Shown here: positions 1,642 to 10,357 of the stretch, one piece after another
Numbering within the stretch: the first letter of the stretch is position 1
How the letters are laid out: each line of letters opens with the position of its first letter
Assembly: GCA_003559415.1 (NCBI GenBank)
Contig: PWLI01000156.1
Coordinates: 1-39,617 of the forward strand
Source: Clostridiales bacterium
GTDB lineage: Bacteria > Bacillota > Proteinivoracia > UBA4975 > PWLI01
DNA: 39,617 nt
Reading direction: 5' to 3'
Notes under the pieces: generated by a model
The model's database searches: none
Seen by the model: the letters and a program-made list of their open reading frames with translations, nothing else
What the model was told of the DNA's origin: nothing
Position numbers and translations under genes: made by a program

Positions 1642-3453
1642 ATGGAACTGAGCGAGAAGATAAAAACCATCCCCTCGGCCACGGGGGTATATGTGTTTAA
1701 AGATATTGAGGACCGGGTGCTCTATGTGGGCAAGGCCAAGAGCCTGCGCAGCCGGCTTAATTCATATTTCGGCAGCAATGCTCCGGACCCGAAAATACTG
1801 ATGTTGCGTCAGCAGGTTGCTGATGTGGACTATACAGTCACTGCCACCGAGGTGGAGGCGCTGCTGTTGGAGGGGCAGCTGATTAAAAAACACCGGCCCC
1901 GGTTTAATGTCATGCTTAAAGATGACAAGGACTATCCCTTTATCCGCCTCGATGTGACGGAAGAGTTCCCCCGCCTGGAAGTGGTGCGGAAGATGAAAAG
2001 GGACAAGGCCCGTTACTTCGGGCCCTATCCCAATGCCGGTGTGATAAATGAGACGCTGCGCCTGGCCAAAAAACTCTTTCCCCTGCGTTCCTGCAATGAC
2101 TGGCGGGGCAAGCGCCGGCCGTGCCTGAACTTTCATATCCGGCGCTGTGTGGCGCCCTGCAGCGGCAGGGTTTCGCCTGAAGATTACCGGCGCATTGTCG
2201 ACCAAGTCGTCCTCTTTCTTCAGGGCCGCCATCAACATCTGGAAAAACAGTTGCGCCAACAGATGGAAGATGCAGCCCGGAGCCAGCAATTTGAAGCCGC
2301 CGCGGAAATCCGCGACCAGCTGGATGCCCTGGGCAAGCTCACCGCCCGCCAGCGGATTGTTTCTGCCCAGACATGGAACCTGGATGTGTTGGCGGTGAGC
2401 ACCCAGGGGGAAATCGCTGCCGCCCAGCTGATGACTGTCAGAGGAGGCAAGGTGCTGGGCAATGAGTACTTCCGCTTTCGTTCCCAGCCTGCTGCTGACC
2501 CCCGGGAGATGGTAAGCGCCTTTGTCCGCGACCATTACCAGCGGGTGCCGGTGTTGCCCGGAGAAATACTGGTTGAAGCTATGCCCCCGGACAACCTGGC
2601 CCTGGAGTCATGGCTCAGCGAAAAACGGGGGGCTCCGGTTGTGTTGCGGATGCCCCAGCGGGGGCAGAAAAAGCAGTTGCTGGCGCTGGCCCGGGAAAAC
2701 CTGGTGGCCCACATGGACGCTGAGAACAAGGGGGAAGACTCCGCCGGCCCGGAACGCGAAACCCTGCTGGCCCAGGTTCAAGAGCTGCTGGGTCTGGAAG
2801 ATATCCCCTGGCGGATAGAGTGTTATGACATATCCCACATTCAGGGAAGTCAGACTGTAGCATCCATGGTGGTGTTTGAAAGGGGCCAGCCGCTGCGCAG
2901 GGCGTACCGCCGGTTTAAAATCAGGGAGCTCAATTCTCCCGATGATTTTGCAGCCATGGCCCAGGTTGTAAGCCGCCGGTTGGCTGCCCATTCTGAGGGA
3001 AGGGAAGGGTTTTCCACCCTGCCCCAGCTGATTGTCGTGGATGGCGGCAAGGGGCAGCTTTCAGCAGTTGCCGGCGTTCTTTCCCACAACAACTGTGGCG
3101 ATGTCGGCCTGGTTGCCCTGGCCAAACGAGATGAGGAGCTGTTTTTGCCCGGACACCAGCAGCCGCTGGTGTTGGAAAAAGGTGACCCTGCACTGCAGCT
3201 GCTGCAGAGAATCCGGGATGAGGCCCACCGCTTTGCGATTGCCTACCATCGCCGCCTGAGAGAAAAGGAAACTCTTGTGTCGGATCTGGACAGAGTCGCC
3301 GGTGTGGGCCCGGCCCGCCGCCGGGCGCTGCTGCAGGCTTTTGGCAGCATCGATCAGTTGCGGGAAAAGGATGCAGCAGAAATTGCTGCTGTACCGGGCA
3401 TACCCTGGTCTGTGGCAGAGGAAATATACCGCCACTTCCGCAAAAACAAGTGA
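1642..3453 (+). CDS. uvrC: UvrC excinuclease ABC subunit C
   Basis: GIY-YIG-like N-terminus (ATGVYVFKDIEDRVLYVGKAKSLRSRLNSYF), UVR-like middle region, IECYDISHIQGSQTVASMVVFERG, C-terminal HhH. Confidence 0.97.
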   Translation: MELSEKIKTIPSATGVYVFKDIEDRVLYVGKAKSLRSRLNSYFGSNAPDPKILMLRQQVADVDYTVTATEVEALLLEGQLIKKHRPRFNVMLKDDKDYPFIRLDVTEEFPRLEVVRKMKRDKARYFGPYPNAGVINETLRLAKKLFPLRSCNDWRGKRRPCLNFHIRRCVAPCSGRVSPEDYRRIVDQVVLFLQGRHQHLEKQLRQQMEDAARSQQFEAAAEIRDQLDALGKLTARQRIVSAQTWNLDVLAVSTQGEIAAAQLMTVRGGKVLGNEYFRFRSQPAADPREMVSAFVRDHYQRVPVLPGEILVEAMPPDNLALESWLSEKRGAPVVLRMPQRGQKKQLLALARENLVAHMDAENKGEDSAGPERETLLAQVQELLGLEDIPWRIECYDISHIQGSQTVASMVVFERGQPLRRAYRRFKIRELNSPDDFAAMAQVVSRRLAAHSEGREGFSTLPQLIVVDGGKGQLSAVAGVLSHNNCGDVGLVALAKRDEELFLPGHQQPLVLEKGDPALQLLQRIRDEAHRFAIAYHRRLREKETLVSDLDRVAGVGPARRRALLQAFGSIDQLREKDAAEIAAVPGIPWSVAEEIYRHFRKNK

Positions 3454-3480
3454 CACCGCTTTGGCGGTGTCATTTTTTAA
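3451..3480 (+). terminator. Rho-independent terminator, stem TGACACCGC-TTTG-GCGGTGTCA followed by T6
   Basis: Perfect 9-bp stem directly followed by TTTTTT; lies between convergent genes. Confidence 0.9.
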
Positions 3481-4816
3481 TAATGAAGTTTGGCAATGCG
3501 AAGCTTTCCACCACCGCCGCAATGGTGTTGTGGCGGCTGGCCCGGGTAAATATGCCTCGAAAGCGGTGATTATACATAAACAGCCCCAACATGAAATTGT
3601 AGTTCTCAAAATTCAGGGAACCGTCCTCCACTGTCAACATTTTTCGCCGGGGCAACAGACAGAATTGCTGAGCCAGGTATGATTCCCCGGTCCACCTGTT
3701 GACCAGCTGTTGCCACTGATCCTTGCTGCAGTCCTTGCCGATGAACACCCCGTGGGCGGCGAACTGGTCATCGGGTTTCAGCACCCAGCGGTCCTTTTCC
3801 TCAACCAGCCTGTCCAGAAATCCCTGGGGAGGAGAGTCGAGCATGACTGTATAGGGTATGTGACGGCCAATAAACGTTTTTTCTGCTTCTGTCAGGAAGG
3901 TCAGGTGTTGGGACATGTGCAATACAGCGAACAGTTTTTTGTTGTGTATAATCTGGGAAACCATGCCGCCGACAACGCAGACATATTGTTCCCGGTATGC
4001 TGTGATAAAGTCCGGTATTTCCTGGGCATAGTGAACAATCCTGGTGGTTGTGGCCCTGCGATAGACCAAGTCAATGGGGGTTGATTGATAATAGAGCTGC
4101 TTCCCCTTGAGTTTCAACTCCCGCAGGTCGCAAATCACTGTATGGTAGCCCCGGGCTTCAAAGCGGGAGCGAAAAACTTCAAATTCACTGGTTGTACCTT
4201 CGCCGGCAAAGTCCGCTATGGCGACGTTTGGTTGATCCGGGCCCCGCCCGCAGTTCCGGTAGTTGGCGATAATGGCCTCTATCCAGGTATCAAAGAGCTC
4301 AAAATCAGAGAAATCTTCCCGGCTTCCAAGTCCTGAAAGGGCCTGGGATGACCCAACTATGTTGTGCAGTTCCCGCACTTCGTTCATACCGGAAGAGCCG
4401 TCGGCGTTGAGCTCACAAAAACGGATATCCCTGTCATCCCGGTGGTAGAACAAGTCAAAACGGGCCATGGGAAAGGGCAGGGGGTAGCCGGGATCCATGA
4501 GCACCAGCTCTTCCATCAGCGGGGGAAATGCAAAGAGTTTGCGAAACTGGCTGTTCTGGCGGTACTGGGCCACAACTTTTTCCAGTATGCCGGCCAGGGT
4601 GTGGGCAATTCGCTCCAGCCGCTGGATGTCATCGGCGGCGAAGAACATGGGCTGGTAGAGAAAATCTATGGGCTTGTCTTTGTATATGGCTGTGGAGTTG
4701 GCAACGGCCTCCTTAACCCGGTGGTAATCATCAATGTACAAATCTGGGTTTGCCAGGACATTTTTTTCAAACTGATGGAAGTACTTGTTTGCCGGCAATG
4801 GTTTACCCCCTTTCAT
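3470..4816 (-). CDS. circularly permuted ATP-grasp ligase (glutathionylspermidine-synthase-like fold), substrate unknown
   Basis: RFDLFYHRDDRDIRFCELNADGSSGMNE and C-terminal RWVLKPDDQFAAHGVFIGKD resemble CP-ATP-grasp nucleotide-binding elements; ATG at 4816 overlaps the 3' end of the upstream GCS2 gene by 14 nt. Confidence 0.75.
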   Translation of the reverse strand: MKGGKPLPANKYFHQFEKNVLANPDLYIDDYHRVKEAVANSTAIYKDKPIDFLYQPMFFAADDIQRLERIAHTLAGILEKVVAQYRQNSQFRKLFAFPPLMEELVLMDPGYPLPFPMARFDLFYHRDDRDIRFCELNADGSSGMNEVRELHNIVGSSQALSGLGSREDFSDFELFDTWIEAIIANYRNCGRGPDQPNVAIADFAGEGTTSEFEVFRSRFEARGYHTVICDLRELKLKGKQLYYQSTPIDLVYRRATTTRIVHYAQEIPDFITAYREQYVCVVGGMVSQIIHNKKLFAVLHMSQHLTFLTEAEKTFIGRHIPYTVMLDSPPQGFLDRLVEEKDRWVLKPDDQFAAHGVFIGKDCSKDQWQQLVNRWTGESYLAQQFCLLPRRKMLTVEDGSLNFENYNFMLGLFMYNHRFRGIFTRASRHNTIAAVVESFALPNFIIKK

Positions 4817-6086
4817 TGTCCACCAGGCACCATTGCAGCGCTTCTGCATGTCCCAGGTGGAGCTGGTTCAGGGTGCGTTGCTTGGGCGTCATGCCCTGGT
4901 TGGCCAGCTCTTTCAATGGCGAGAGAAAGTGCTGTTCATCTGCCGGCAGCGCCCTCTCAGACATTTGCAGCATTTGTTTGAGGCTGTCCAGCACTGTTGC
5001 TCCGCCAACCACGGCATCCAGCCCGCCCTGGATTATTTGACGTTGCCGGTCCAACAGTGATTGCAAGTCATGGTGCTGAGCCTGGGAATAAAGCTCTTGC
5101 AAGTTGTGCTCATCGTAGAGCAACCCCTTCCACAAGGCGATGTAGCCCAGGCTGTGGGGCAAGGGCAGCGAGTCCCCCATGCGAATCTCCAGATAATTGC
5201 GCGCCCGCACATCCAAAAACTGCATGGACAAAACATGTTCCAGCTGTGCCTTATCCAGTTCATGCTGTGCCAGCAATTCTGCCATTGTTGCTTCCCCTGT
5301 GTATAAAAAGCCCTCCGGCGTGCGCAGAATGATGGGAGGGGTGTTGAGAACATGCCGGGCATAGTGTTCATAACTTTCAAGGGCAGTTATGCCGCACCTG
5401 TGGCAGTCACAATCGTTCCAAATCTTGTTGCGGATGCTGCCTCCCGGCCAGGGATTGGCTTCAAAGAAGGGGCTGTTGTCATAACAGGCATAGATCAGGG
5501 GGGTCAGGTAGTTGGCCACCTTCATCTTCTTCCCAAAATCCTCCTGGGTGTCAAAATCCATGCTGACCTGTATGGAAGCAGTTCCCTTCATCATGTTGTG
5601 GGCCAGCTTGCCCCGGCCAGCGAAATACCGGTACATGTACGTGTAGCGCTGCTTGGGCACCATGGGGATGTCGTCAATGGTGCTGCGGGGCTGGTAGCCC
5701 AGCGTTGCCAGCACCAGGCCGTTGTCTGCCAGGACACTATTGATTTCCTTTACAAAAATACGATAGAAATTTTCAATATCTGCCACCCGGGCCTGGGGGG
5801 TGAGACTTATTTCCACCTGGCCTCCCGGCTCCAGGGTTATGACGCCCCAGGGTTTGTGGAGCTGAACCAGGTGCTCGCCTTCGTATACCGGCTGCCAGCC
5901 CAGGGCCGTCATTTGTTTCAGACTGCTTTCCACACCTGGCGAGGCAAAGAAGGAAACTGCCTCCAGGCTGTGTTTTTTTAATATAAAGTGTTCTATTTCC
6001 ACACCCAGGGAAAATTGTTCCCGGGGTGTCTCTGCCTTTTGTATATAGCTTGCAATTGTCTCAACGGCCTGGGTGTAGGTGCTCAT
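4803..6086 (-). CDS. glutamate-cysteine ligase, GCS2 (plant/alphaproteobacterial) type
   Basis: GVEIEHF..., GVITLEPGGQVEISLTPQ, QRYTYMYRYF, MMKGTASIQVSMDFDTQEDF, NSPFFEANPWPGGSIRNKIW; ATG at 6086 preceded by AGGAGGG. Confidence 0.88.
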   Translation of the reverse strand: MSTYTQAVETIASYIQKAETPREQFSLGVEIEHFILKKHSLEAVSFFASPGVESSLKQMTALGWQPVYEGEHLVQLHKPWGVITLEPGGQVEISLTPQARVADIENFYRIFVKEINSVLADNGLVLATLGYQPRSTIDDIPMVPKQRYTYMYRYFAGRGKLAHNMMKGTASIQVSMDFDTQEDFGKKMKVANYLTPLIYACYDNSPFFEANPWPGGSIRNKIWNDCDCHRCGITALESYEHYARHVLNTPPIILRTPEGFLYTGEATMAELLAQHELDKAQLEHVLSMQFLDVRARNYLEIRMGDSLPLPHSLGYIALWKGLLYDEHNLQELYSQAQHHDLQSLLDRQRQIIQGGLDAVVGGATVLDSLKQMLQMSERALPADEQHFLSPLKELANQGMTPKQRTLNQLHLGHAEALQWCLVDNERG

Positions 6087-6113
6087 GTTGTCGCTCCCTC
6101 CTGTCATGACTAC

Positions 6114-6190: not shown

Positions 6191-6230
6191 TTTCTTTAAG
6201 TTTATTAAGTTACAAGTAAATTTCTTTAAG
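6191..6230 (+). repeat. direct repeats TTTCTTTAAG (6191-6200, 6221-6230) with related TTTATTAAG (6201-6209)
   Basis: Two exact 10-mers spaced 30 bp start to start, plus a degenerate copy, immediately upstream of the -35 at 6238. Confidence 0.75.
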
Positions 6231-6237
6231 CAAGAGG

Positions 6238-6266
6238 TTGCATTTAGCTGCAGGGGTGAGTATAAT
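6238..6266 (+). promoter_or_regulatory. sigma-A-type promoter TTGCAT-N17-TATAAT for the DUF2089/DUF4097 cluster
   Basis: Near-consensus hexamers with exact 17-bp spacing, about 50 nt upstream of the ATG at 6317. Confidence 0.8.
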
Positions 6267-6316: not shown

Positions 6317-6700
6317 ATGCGCAATCAAATGTTGGGCCGCTGCCCGGTGTGCAACTCCGGGTTGGAGGTAACCAAGCTTCATTGTCCCCATTGTGACACC
6401 GGCATCGAAGGCCGCTTTCAAATCTGCAAGTTTTGTCAGCTTCCCCCCGACCAGAAGGCTTTTGTAGAAGTTTTTATCAAGAGCCGGGGCAACATCAAAG
6501 AGGTGGAAAAAGAGCTGGGTATTTCCTACCCCACAGTAAGAAGCCGGCTGGAAGCAGTTATCGAATCCTTGGGCTATAAGCCTCAGCCAGTGCCCAAGGA
6601 TGATCCTGAGGCCAAGGAAAAACGCAAGACAATTTTGGAAGACCTGAACAGTGGCAAGATAAGCTCAGAAGAAGCCATTGCCAAGCTTCGTGATCTGTAG
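6317..6700 (+). CDS. DUF2089-family protein: N-terminal zinc ribbon, HTH-like middle, C-terminal SHOCT-like motif
   Basis: CPVCNS...CPHCDTGIEG...CKFC; ELGISYPTVRSRLEAVIESLGY; C-terminal ILEDLNSGKISSEEAIAKLRDL; GGAAAGGAG RBS. Confidence 0.85.
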   Translation: MRNQMLGRCPVCNSGLEVTKLHCPHCDTGIEGRFQICKFCQLPPDQKAFVEVFIKSRGNIKEVEKELGISYPTVRSRLEAVIESLGYKPQPVPKDDPEAKEKRKTILEDLNSGKISSEEAIAKLRDL

Positions 6701-6729
6701 AAGGGGTTTCTGGGAAAGGAGGGTGTCTG

Positions 6730-7761
6730 ATGACTGACGAAAAGAAAATGATTCTTGATATGCTCAGCCAGGGGAAAATAACTGCCGAAGAAGCACAAAA
6801 CCTGCTGGAAGCCCTGCCTCAGCAGCCGGAAACCAGTCAGGACACTCAGCGCGATGCCACCGGCAAGACTAAGGAAGCACCCCAGTCAATCATGGGGGGT
6901 ATAATGGAATCCATTCGCAGCGGGTTTTCTGGAATCGACTTCTCAGATTTTTCTGTAGAGTTTTCCGACTCCAGCCGCATAACGCTGGAAGAAAGCCATA
7001 GCGGGCAATTTGACAGTCAGCAAGTGGAGCTGGATTTGCAAGCCCGCAACGGCAGCATCAGGGTGGAAAGCTGGGAACAGCCTGAGTATAAGCTGGATGT
7101 AATCAAGCGTGTCAAAGCTGCCACCCGGGAGCAGGCTGAAGATTTGGCTGCCCAGTATTCCTTTGCAAAAATTGCCGGTGACAAACTGCGTGCCGGTGAT
7201 CAGGAATCCAAGAAAAACGGCAAGCGCATCAACGTATCTCTGCGCCTGCGTCTGCCCAAGGGCCACAGCTACACTGGCCTGGTCAAGACAATGAATGGCA
7301 GCATTGACATTTCCGGTTTGGATGTAGACCAATTGGAGATCAGCTCCATGAATGGTTCTGTTAAGTTGGAAGATATCCGGGGCAATGACCTGCAGGCCAA
7401 GACAGTAAATGGCAGCCTGCGCTTGGAAGGCAGCCTGGATTCCGTTTCAGGAAACACCACCAACGGCAGTATTTCACTGTCAAACTTTGCCGAAGACAGC
7501 GAGAATCACTTGGGCACAGTTAACGGTAAAATTGTTGCCAGAGTCCCCGCCCGCAACGATGTGGGCATCAGCGTTCTGGCCAACACCACCTCGGGCTCCA
7601 TAAAAGTATATCACACAAAACTGGAAGGGCTGGAGTCTGAACGAAAGGTGGCATCCCGGAGGTTGGAAGGCCAATCCTCCAACTGGGACCGGGCGACCCA
7701 TCAGGTTGATTTACACCTGAAGTCGGTAAACGGCAGCATCAGAATTGACGATTTGGATTAA
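6730..7761 (+). CDS. DUF4097-family protein with N-terminal SHOCT-like motif and beta-solenoid-type repeats (YvlB/LiaX-like)
   Basis: N-terminal MILDMLSQGKITAEEAQNLLEAL; repeated NGSIRVES / NGSIDISG / NGSVKLED / NGSLRLEG / NGSISLSN / NGSIRIDD units. Confidence 0.8.
   Translation: MTDEKKMILDMLSQGKITAEEAQNLLEALPQQPETSQDTQRDATGKTKEAPQSIMGGIMESIRSGFSGIDFSDFSVEFSDSSRITLEESHSGQFDSQQVELDLQARNGSIRVESWEQPEYKLDVIKRVKAATREQAEDLAAQYSFAKIAGDKLRAGDQESKKNGKRINVSLRLRLPKGHSYTGLVKTMNGSIDISGLDVDQLEISSMNGSVKLEDIRGNDLQAKTVNGSLRLEGSLDSVSGNTTNGSISLSNFAEDSENHLGTVNGKIVARVPARNDVGISVLANTTSGSIKVYHTKLEGLESERKVASRRLEGQSSNWDRATHQVDLHLKSVNGSIRIDDLD
7048..7758 (+). repeat. protein-level NGS[ILV]-x-[VIL] repeat array encoded in the DUF4097 gene
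   Basis: At least seven NGS/SGS-I/V/L units visible in the translation at irregular spacing. Confidence 0.8.
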
Positions 7762-7775
7762 AAGGAGGGCTTACA

Positions 7776-8129
7776 GTGGATTGGATTAAAGAGGTTGTCG
7801 TTACCCCTGGATTTGCGCTTGGTGTAGGAGCTTTATTTTTGGTGTTGATTATCAGCTACCATGTGCGACAAATGGCGCTGATCAAGACCGGCTTGATAAA
7901 GAAACCTCTGGCCCGGGTGTGGATGGTGGATTTTGACCGTTTGCGCAGCGGCCTGTGGCTGGCAGCCTTGGGTGGCGTAATTGCAGCAACCATTCGTTAT
8001 GACGATTTTGGCGGTTGGCTCGCCTTTTGGACCCTGGTTGGCCTGTTCGGTGTGGGACAGGTGTTGGCAAGCCTCCTGGGCCGTGACCGCTGGCGCACCA
8101 AGGTTCGCCGCGTCCGGCACTACGATTAG
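7776..8129 (+). CDS. small membrane protein, function unknown
   Basis: Two or three hydrophobic segments, basic C-terminus; AAAGGAGGG RBS upstream of GTG. Confidence 0.75.
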   Translation: MDWIKEVVVTPGFALGVGALFLVLIISYHVRQMALIKTGLIKKPLARVWMVDFDRLRSGLWLAALGGVIAATIRYDDFGGWLAFWTLVGLFGVGQVLASLLGRDRWRTKVRRVRHYD

Positions 8130-8138
8130 GTGGTTGCC

Positions 8139-9158
8139 ATGAGTCAGGCTTTTGAACAAACGCTGGCGTGCGGCTTTCATCCCCGGGTAAAGGTGGATGT
8201 GAACACAGGAAAGGTTTTTGTCCGCAGCTGGGAAGGTGACGATGTCAAAATATCTGCTGAGGGCGCAGAGCCTGATGTAAACAGCAGCGGCGACCGGATA
8301 GTGATTCGCACTGAACAGCATTGCCAGTTGTCACTGTACCTGCCGCGCAACTGTGACCTGACAGTTGACGGCGGCAACATGGAAATAGATGCGGCCGGCA
8401 TTTCCGGAACCTGCAACATAGACATATGCGATGGCTCGGTTTCCCTTTGCCAATGGCAGGGAAATGTGAATATCGACACCGCCCATGGAAATGTGCGTCT
8501 GGAACAGGTTGAAGGTAACCTGGAAGTTGATACTTCCGGCGGCTCTGTGGAGGCAACGGCCTGCCAGGGCAGCCTGAGCGCCGACACCGGTGCCGGCGCT
8601 GTGACGGTTACAGACTGTCGGCTGTCACTTTCGCTGGACACCGGCAGCGGCGATGTTTCCGTCTCCCGGCAGCAAGGAGCGGTTGCCATTGACTGTGCCA
8701 GCGGTGCTGTTGAAATCCTTTCCGTCAGCAGCCACAACCTCCTGGCGGAAAGCGGCACAGGTGATATTACCGCCCAGCTTCCCGGAGGCAATCTGGGACG
8801 GTGGCGGCTGCGGTCTGGCAACGACATAAAACTGGCCGTTCCGGCAAATATCTCGGCCCGCTTTACTTTGTCGGCGGGACATATTGATGCAGATTCCCTG
8901 GAGCTGGACAACCTTCATCAAAAGGGCAATCGCGTCAGTGGCACCCTCAGTGACGGCAACGGCCGGGTCGATGTCAGGGCCAGGGGCGGCATATTCGCCC
9001 AGCAAGCAGGGCCCGATGTCACCATCGACATCGCTCAACCGACGGAAACAGAAGAGGAAACCATCAAGATCTTAACCATGGTTGAACAGGGTACAATCAG
9101 CATTGAAGAGGCTGAAAAGCTGATAGACGCCCTGACTGGAGGTGGAATTGATGAGTGA
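8139..9158 (+). CDS. DUF4097-like beta-solenoid protein with C-terminal SHOCT-like motif
   Basis: GNVNIDTAHGNVRLEQVEGNLEVDTSGGSVEATACQGSLSADTGAGAVTVTD... repeats; C-terminal TIKILTMVEQGTISIEEAEKLIDAL. Confidence 0.75.
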   Translation: MSQAFEQTLACGFHPRVKVDVNTGKVFVRSWEGDDVKISAEGAEPDVNSSGDRIVIRTEQHCQLSLYLPRNCDLTVDGGNMEIDAAGISGTCNIDICDGSVSLCQWQGNVNIDTAHGNVRLEQVEGNLEVDTSGGSVEATACQGSLSADTGAGAVTVTDCRLSLSLDTGSGDVSVSRQQGAVAIDCASGAVEILSVSSHNLLAESGTGDITAQLPGGNLGRWRLRSGNDIKLAVPANISARFTLSAGHIDADSLELDNLHQKGNRVSGTLSDGNGRVDVRARGGIFAQQAGPDVTIDIAQPTETEEETIKILTMVEQGTISIEEAEKLIDALTGGGIDE

Positions 9159-9501
9159 TGAGCGGATTAAAATACTGAACATGATTGCCGAAGGCAAGAT
9201 ATCCCCGGAGGAAGGATCAAATCTCCTCAAAGCGCTGGAGCCCGATGAGCCACCCCGGCAAGGAGCAGTTCGCTGGTTGATAATCCGGGTCTACGAGCAG
9301 GGTTCCAATAAAGTACAAGCCAACATTCGTTTGCCTGTGCGCCTGGCTGGAAAACTGATGAAGTTTTCCAACCGGTTTGTGAATGAATCGGATATCGACT
9401 TGGAAGAAATCTATGCAGCCATTGCCCAAGGAGAACCGGGCAAGGTTATGGAAGTCTACACCGACGACGATACCCGGGTCGAAATATATTTGGAAGGGTG
9501 A
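9151..9501 (+). CDS. SHOCT-like motif protein with short C-terminal alpha/beta domain (paralogue of next gene)
   Basis: N-terminal IKILNMIAEGKISPEEGSNLLKALEP; ATG at 9151 overlaps the upstream stop (ATGAGTGA). Confidence 0.7.
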   Translation: MSDERIKILNMIAEGKISPEEGSNLLKALEPDEPPRQGAVRWLIIRVYEQGSNKVQANIRLPVRLAGKLMKFSNRFVNESDIDLEEIYAAIAQGEPGKVMEVYTDDDTRVEIYLEG

Positions 9502-9507
9502 TCTGCT

Positions 9508-9906
9508 GTGGAAGAACGGGTAAAGGTTTTGGAGATGGTTCGCGACGGCAAGGTCACTCCCCAAGAGGCTCAGGAATTGCTTTCACTGTTGGAAAACAGG
9601 GAACAAGCGCCTCAACGGATGCTGGAGAATTTCGTTGACCTGCACGATGACGACCAGCTGCCCGCCCGTAATTTGAAGATTACCAGTCTGTCTGAAAAAG
9701 ACGGCAAGCCTCGTAAAACTTCATTTAACCTGCCCCTGGGCATGCTGCGTTTTATCAATGGCCTTTTCCCCGGCTCAACGGTAATCGGAGTGAACAGCAA
9801 GTACCTGGACAGGGATCAACTTATGGATATGATTCACAAGGGTGAGAAGGGCGTTATCTACCGGGAAGAAACGGAAAAGGGCGGCGTGATAATTGAACTG
9901 ATATAG
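9508..9906 (+). CDS. SHOCT-like motif protein (paralogue of preceding gene)
   Basis: N-terminal VKVLEMVRDGKVTPQEAQELLSLLE; C-terminal half resembles the 9151 product (NLPLGMLRFINGLF / RLPVRLAGKLMKFSNRF). Confidence 0.7.
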   Translation: MEERVKVLEMVRDGKVTPQEAQELLSLLENREQAPQRMLENFVDLHDDDQLPARNLKITSLSEKDGKPRKTSFNLPLGMLRFINGLFPGSTVIGVNSKYLDRDQLMDMIHKGEKGVIYREETEKGGVIIELI

Positions 9907-9915
9907 GTTCGTTCG

Positions 9916-9940
9916 GGCTCCAGTTTGGCTGGAGCCTTTT
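9916..9940 (+). terminator. Rho-independent terminator GGCTCCAG-TTTGG-CTGGAGCC-TTTT
   Basis: 8-bp stem plus T-tract downstream of the 9508 gene. Confidence 0.8.
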
Positions 9941-10006: not shown

Positions 10007-10357
10007 ATGGTATTTATAATTCGCATGGCGCTAAATGGATTGGCGCTGTGGGCTGTTGCAACGTTGTTGAGAGGTATCACCCTGGCAACTGTCGAAGATA
10101 TTATACTGGCCACCCTGGTTTGGGGTGTGTTCAACGGCCTGTTGCGGCCGGTGCTGAGAGTACTGACATTGCCTGTAAACATTATGACACTGGGCCTCTT
10201 TGGCCTGGCATTAAACGGGATGTTGTTTTGGTCCGTTTCGGCACTGGTGCGCGGGTTTGTGATAGACAGCTTTCTTTGGGCCCTGGCAGGGGTTGTGCTG
10301 ACAACTTTTATTTCTTCGTTGTTGGCCATGTTGCTGGGTGTGAGAAGAAGGCGCTGA
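10007..10357 (+). CDS. phage-holin-family IV / YvlD-like membrane protein
   Basis: NGLALWAVATLLRGITL...LVWGVFNGLLRPVLRVLTLPVNIMTLGLFGLALNGMLFW pattern; four TM segments. Confidence 0.8.
   Translation: MVFIIRMALNGLALWAVATLLRGITLATVEDIILATLVWGVFNGLLRPVLRVLTLPVNIMTLGLFGLALNGMLFWSVSALVRGFVIDSFLWALAGVVLTTFISSLLAMLLGVRRRR

Follow-up and report, generated by a model that had tools for sequence, protein, structure and literature searches.

Background

What holds together, and what controls, a bacterial gene cluster in which five of the six proteins carry the same short helical motif? The question is raised by positions 6317-9906 of a 39,617-nucleotide (nt) stretch of DNA from a Clostridiales bacterium (contig PWLI01000156.1, all of which is called the window here), where a gene for a DUF2089 protein is followed by genes for two Toastrack (DUF4097) proteins, a small membrane protein, and two further small proteins. 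An earlier account made from the letters alone (the sequence-only reading) had taken the cluster for a candidate new envelope-sensing system assembled through its shared motif. The analysis reported here indicates that it is probably an envelope-stress operon of the Toastrack type (Lia, yvl, and phage shock protein [PSP] partner systems), autoregulated by DUF2089 through an array of operator sites, with mainly cytosolic, membrane-facing products linked by SHOCT-like domains.

Comparisons cover 13 genomes of the same class, a first sample of 249 genomes of the phylum, and a larger phylum sample of 398 genomes. The surroundings of DUF2089 genes were fetched from phylum genomes, and their open reading frames (ORFs) were scored with profiles made from the window proteins. 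The census of loci comes from whole-genome searches; a single-protein scan of named genomes yielded five loci. Labels of the form L0xx or L1xx denote stretches fetched from the sampled genomes, and window proteins other than DUF2089 are named by the first position of their genes.

A SHOCT-like domain in five of six proteins

The six ORFs, all on the forward (+) strand, lie at or close to the positions at which the sequence-only reading had placed them, and its observation of one short motif in five of their products is borne out. A Pfam search of each protein finds PF22746 (SHOCT-like_DUF2089-C) in five of the six, and four copies exceed the curated cut-off of 27 bits, with scores of 34-41 bits: those at the N-termini of the 6730 (residues 3-29, E 2.8e-9), 9151 (residues 3-32, E 1.2e-10), and 9508 (residues 2-32, E 1.9e-8) proteins and at the C-terminus of the 8139 protein (residues 306-334, E 6.1e-9). 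The copy at the C-terminus of DUF2089 falls below the cut-off (17.0 bits, E 0.0045), yet it is in register. Between pairs of the five 26-residue segments, 9-14 residues are identical, and all four significant copies of PF22746 in the genome sit inside this operon. The Pfam matches rule out a chance likeness; the motif had been placed correctly but is not undescribed, since it is an existing Pfam domain. Like canonical SHOCT, it is a short bihelical tag at the termini of unrelated proteins, but it belongs to a separate Pfam family, and the canonical SHOCT model has no match to the operon proteins at E up to 1.

A phased operator array upstream of DUF2089

The first gene of the operon (6317-6700) encodes a DUF2089 regulator with a zinc ribbon, a helix-turn-helix (HTH), and the C-terminal SHOCT-like tail. 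PF22747 (E 3.8e-15) and PF09862 (E 2.8e-25) are both over cut-off, the tail can be aligned across 20 orthologues, and identity to the orthologues of the class is 63-85%. The HTH weakly resembles region 4 of σ70 (Pfam, E 0.015). Upstream, on the same strand, lies a predicted σA-like promoter, TTGCAT at 6238-6243 and TATAAT at 6261-6266 with 17 nt between them, and a promoter of the form TTGC[A/G]-N17-19-TATAAT is present in 12/12 class upstream regions examined.

Palindromic dyads are conspicuous upstream of DUF2089. In the discovery set, 77 dereplicated 220-nt upstream regions, pairs of TTAA are preferentially spaced by 9, 21, 12, and 30 bp (37, 35, 24, and 24 of the 77 regions), against an expectation of ~3 from dinucleotide shuffles and no more than 11 in intergenic controls of matched GC content taken from the same loci. 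The resulting operator matrix is a 15-mer, aTTAAtAWTaTTAAt (palindrome aTTAAt-AWT-aTTAAt), and neighbouring sites are most often 21 bp apart (65 cases), with 14 cases at the runner-up distance. Within the 1.11 Mb scanned, 54 of the 65 tandem sites stand before DUF2089 and 5 before a small SHOCT gene that has its own upstream gap; several of the remainder are DUF2089 promoters with a misplaced or more distant gene start. Relative to the predicted transcription start, sites recur at -72, -51, -30, -9, +12, and +33.

In the window the predicted operator (6195-6230, no strand assigned) consists of two palindromes 21 bp apart, 6195-6209 (TTTAAGTTTATTAAG) and 6216-6230 (GTAAATTTCTTTAAG), centred at about -72 and -51. 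The first is the top-scoring matrix site of the entire 39.6 kb (11.5 bits), its partner lies exactly 21 bp on (6.2 bits), and the pattern of four half-sites, with up to one mismatch, occurs once in the genome, here. Seven loci with the window's gene order and the same promoter have a site at -72/-73 and mostly a second at -51/-52, upstream of the promoter elements, a placement that would fit an activator. Among 52 other promoters, 31 have a site overlying the -35 element, as might be expected for a repressor. In many lineages the -35 sequence TTGACA forms the left part of the palindrome, and 29 sites begin 1 nt before the -35 element.

The array was found again with the matrix frozen. Among 56 held-out DUF2089 loci, which are new but partly congeneric with the earlier genomes and so not fully independent, spacing peaks occur at 9 bp (28) and 21 bp (26) of about 55, with ~2 expected, and 31 of 36 tandem sites are at DUF2089. 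The spacing also varies with the regulator. At loci with a tandem pair it is 21 bp for 50 of 55 DUF2089 genes in which a SHOCT tail is detected and 22 bp for 6 of 8 in which none is, although part of the latter group may have a divergent tail (PF22746 scores 26.2 bits in L016). The likeliest binder of the array is DUF2089, since the spacing rule shifts along with its subfamily. Since the array is replicated in held-out loci and its spacing follows the subfamily, DUF2089 very probably reads these predicted sites and so regulates its own operon.

Might the array instead be bound by some other factor, or simply be phased A+T-rich DNA (an UP element or curvature), with DUF2089 as a passenger? The sites are A+T-rich, and part of a half-site doubles as the -35 sequence in many loci, as noted. 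However, the exact 9/12/21 spacing is absent from the GC-matched controls, the sites are almost limited to DUF2089 operons, the shift from 21 to 22 bp accompanies the DUF2089 subfamily, and the palindromic half-sites suit a dimeric HTH protein. This explanation is thus very unlikely. A literature search found no DNA target for DUF2089, and the predicted 21-bp-phased array, spread across the phylum in a fixed promoter register, is previously undescribed.

DUF2089 proteins without the zinc ribbon (L016, L090, L091, L092, L094) have operator-like palindromes upstream, with tandem pairs, where seen, 22 bp apart; several of these genes adjoin one for a membrane protein of ~85-110 amino acids (aa), and some early ORF starts run through the operator. 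A second tandem operator, separate from that of DUF2089, precedes the small SHOCT gene in L020, L067, L068, L071, and L076. Elsewhere in the window's own genome (L108:1935-1971; G000:C103, about 2934-2970), palindromes of 10.5 and 13.8 bits lie 22 bp apart between a divergent ORF resembling an ATP-binding cassette (ABC) exporter and an msrA/msrB-like ORF, a possible second target.

The partner proteins

The first Toastrack protein (6730-7761) joins an N-terminal SHOCT-like domain to DUF4097 (PF13349, E 3.2e-9, 36.9 bits; cut-off 22.9 bits). This architecture is that of YvlB and LiaX, in agreement with the kinship to yvl/LiaX-type systems suggested from the sequence. The second (8139-9158) has the reverse order, DUF4097 (E 2.2e-12, 47.3 bits) followed by a C-terminal SHOCT-like domain. 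No membrane segment is predicted in either. In an unrooted tree of 70 Toastrack bodies, made by a quick method with the SHOCT-like domain removed, proteins with a C-terminal SHOCT split from those with an N-terminal one (Shimodaira-Hasegawa-like approximate likelihood ratio test, 98). The C-terminal group comprises the class, Chloroflexota loci, and another lineage of the phylum, and the tree needs one change of SHOCT position, although some rows are long-branched. Because the two types separate so deeply, the window's Toastrack pair did not arise by recent duplication.

The two small SHOCT proteins, A (9151-9501) and B (9508-9906), align over their full length; each consists of a SHOCT-like hairpin and a C-terminal domain with the pattern LRIxV...KVxxxIPlxlV...GxxGxxxEV....VxIxLE. 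All 27 aligned family members match PF22746, and their C-terminal half has no Pfam assignment except in a stray member. An AlphaFold2 model of protein A (pLDDT 82.6, pTM 0.55) shows two helices and then a strand-strand-helix-helix-strand-strand arrangement. A known fold for the C-terminal domain was sought, and there was no significant PDB sequence match and no Foldseek match below E 0.1. Profiles of the A and B C-terminal domains gather nearly equal sets (76 and 75 proteins) from the first loci, and 46 members were detected by profile in the held-out loci. By these sequence criteria the small proteins are a widespread family, new here, that combines a SHOCT-like domain with an unannotated C-terminal domain. 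Hydrophobic proteins of ~90-140 aa that lack SHOCT and have a similar C-terminal-domain pattern occur beside the small SHOCT gene or YvlD in L020, L031, L036, L039, L041, L042, L045, L047, L055, L067, L068, L076, and L079; those scanned match no Pfam family. Their profile alignment with the C-terminal domain (hhalign P 0.0015; 0.0035 in a second run, above 60/60 column shuffles) is only suggestive of kinship.

The sixth protein (7776-8129, 117 aa) lacks the motif. It had been taken for a small membrane protein, which agrees with three predicted helices long enough to span a membrane (residues 11-37, 53-74, and 79-115), albeit in a low-confidence model (pLDDT 66). It has a weak likeness to DUF6249, and strong matches are confined to the class (9 of the 249 sampled genomes). 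Comparisons lend no support to its being PspC or a relative of the hydrophobic ~100-aa proteins found beside YvlD.

Conservation of the layout

The layout is counted as conserved in 11 of the 13 class genomes, three of which are short of one small protein. Among the fetched loci, the order DUF2089, SHOCT-Toastrack, membrane protein, Toastrack-SHOCT, small A, small B is found in nine class genomes including the window's, and three related ones lack small A (L006, L009, and the single genome represented by L010 and L011, in which the operon is divided between two contigs). The neighbourhood check proposed earlier therefore shows the six genes to be co-conserved. Small SHOCT proteins are present in 12 of the 13 class genomes and DUF2089 above cut-off likewise in 12; the remaining genome, 86% complete, has a weak partial DUF2089 match.

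In the first phylum sample, 84 of 249 genomes have DUF2089 and 87 have PF22746 above cut-off, and in the larger sample DUF2089 exceeds the cut-off in 141 of 398. Among 89 DUF2089 genes, 74 encode a SHOCT tail of their own, 74 are followed within their operon by one or more SHOCT genes, and the same-operon partners include a small SHOCT protein (57), a Toastrack (43), and YvlD (32). The core seen elsewhere in the phylum is DUF2089, a SHOCT-Toastrack and/or a small SHOCT protein, and YvlD, the commonest form being DUF2089, (SHOCT-Toastrack), SHOCT-small, YvlD. Operons outside the class have at most three SHOCT copies, and eight class operons have five. Of the phylum loci examined, the window operon shows the system in its most elaborate form. 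An ABC exporter pair begins within 14 bp of the SHOCT-Toastrack gene in two genomes (L069:8350-11996, L075:6503-9498) and is located further downstream at other loci; in the former position it is possibly an output of the system.

The operon is closed by a terminator-like hairpin on the + strand (9915-9937, 10 pairs, T tail). Chance expectation for such hairpins in the region equals or exceeds the number seen, and this one is backed by its position after the last gene. About 100 bp past the operon a gene for a YvlD-like (Phage_holin_4_2) membrane protein follows on the same strand (10007-10357; PF04020, E 2.4e-23); it lies beyond the hairpin and so outside the predicted transcript. YvlD is nevertheless a recurrent partner; outside the class, it shares an operon with DUF2089 in 31 of 76 cases. 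No Rfam family was found in the operon region. On the other side, a gene of uvrC length (uvrA-uvrC neighbourhood) precedes the operon in most class genomes, its identity being confirmed by Pfam for L005 and for the window (1642-3453). Outside the class, UvrC lies just upstream of DUF2089 in at least two genomes and two genes upstream in a third; thus the operon's place by uvrC is old. In related genomes the uvrC-sized gene abuts the operon directly, unlike in the window, where an overlapping pair on the minus strand (3470-6107), a GCS2-type glutamate-cysteine ligase gene and a weakly GSP_synth-like ATP-grasp gene, lies between the two.

A model for the operon

The model builds on the domains, the conserved operon, and the operator with its link to DUF2089, all of which are observed, and postulates direct binding by DUF2089, a sign of regulation, SHOCT contacts, and an envelope signal. 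Dimers of DUF2089 would bind the 21-bp palindrome array, all on the same side of the double helix and in phase with the promoter, and transcription would thereby depend on the condition of the partner proteins. Both SHOCT-Toastrack proteins and both small SHOCT proteins would work with 7776 at the membrane's inner face, the SHOCT-like hairpins most likely joining them to each other and to the DUF2089 tail. The 7776 protein (elsewhere PspC or other proteins) would sense or transmit stress at the membrane, and a membrane change would then alter promoter occupancy, in effect a one-component replacement for LiaFSR. The envelope assignment derives from published YvlB and LiaX work, by analogy with which the operon may serve in envelope stress. 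A bolder generalization, possible but doubtful, is that DUF2089 constitutes a one-component envelope-stress class, whose HTH would read -35-like TTRA half-sites on a promoter-locked 21-bp grid, whose SHOCT tail would be engaged by Toastrack and small proteins, and in which a kinase-free membrane scaffold would set promoter occupancy.

Several points weigh against the autoregulated, SHOCT-linked operon favoured here. The tandem array is undetectable at 30 of 92 DUF2089 loci and at 18 of 56 held-out loci. Unlinked SHOCT-Toastrack operons carry no tandem array, and its control of those operons was rejected for that reason. Binding by DUF2089 is deduced from association and from the co-variation of spacing. 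There is no PspC in the window, where the class-specific membrane protein occupies that spot. Finally, a published oligomerization assay, made on canonical SHOCT and not on PF22746, was negative (PMC3581485).

This last result would suit a different role for the hairpin, as a tag that brings each protein on its own to the membrane's inner face, or to 7776, without contact between SHOCT-like domains. Anchoring of SHOCT-like domains to the inner leaflet has been proposed by Ravi et al. 2024 (PMC11237479), and 7776 alone among the core proteins has no motif. Yet 7776 is not conserved outside the class while the SHOCT-bearing partners are, and a DNA-binding regulator tagged only for the membrane would have to be released from it. 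Separate targeting thus seems an unlikely, though by no means negligible, alternative to hairpins that join the proteins.

Comparison with known systems

The nearest precedent is the DUF2089-Toastrack context of Ravi et al. The available part of that account describes DUF2089 (zinc ribbon-HTH-SHOCT-like) beside Toastrack, with SHOCT-like domains at either Toastrack end, together with a membrane component, and predicts membrane-stress signalling (PMC11237479). All three components are found within one operon in the window. Because this arrangement had been described, the claim of a new system was too strong. The window differs in its six genes, five SHOCT-like copies, and two Toastrack classes, adds two small SHOCT proteins and the weakly DUF6249-like membrane protein, and has an operator, which does not appear in that part of the account.

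Could the locus then be a plain yvl/liaXYZ-type operon with a few added paralogues and nothing distinct in its mechanism? Besides the published DUF2089-Toastrack context, yvlABCD of B. subtilis and enterococcal liaXYZ (YvlB-PspC-YvlD) share with the window a protein with N-terminal SHOCT-like and DUF4097 domains and a YvlD-type gene nearby (here PF04020), and the PspC-YvlD order recurs in relatives of the operon (L066, L081, L082), where PspC lies between the Toastrack or small protein and YvlD. In contrast, the window lacks PspC and has its own DNA-binding regulator with a phased operator, its two Toastrack classes are deeply separate, its membrane protein is class-specific, and 6730 scores 73 bits against the 350-bit cut-off of the NCBIfam LiaX model (NF038025). 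In the window, so little sequence separates SHOCT from Toastrack that the long helical region of LiaX would not fit. An ordinary operon of this type is improbable, and the earlier view that the layout is larger than yvl/lia holds. That account had the genes right but overlooked the operator, the recurrent association with YvlD, and the C-terminal domain common to 9151 and 9508.

LiaG and LiaF (liaIH-GFSR) share the Toastrack fold, and 8139 has a weak match to the LiaG model (43.5 bits, where the cut-off is 285), but the window Toastracks have no predicted membrane segment. The operon contains no kinase or response regulator; the genome was not searched for LiaS/LiaR. In the published systems, two-hybrid tests show binding of YvlB to PspA and LiaH (PMC9239133), yvlABCD belongs to the core σW regulon (PMC3498285), LiaX binds daptomycin and restrains LiaFSR (PMC10269926), and the PspC-like LiaY drives membrane remodelling (PMC11601895). 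The operator links the daptomycin-sensing LiaX/YvlB type of protein to possible kinase-free regulation. DUF2089 is widespread, and a conserved, promoter-phased operator makes this orphan regulator and its SHOCT/Toastrack partners a testable circuit, beside which an unannotated small-protein family is now defined next to LiaX/YvlB-type proteins. The locus is an unusually elaborate variant of a published gene context, in which the operator code and the small-protein family are new.

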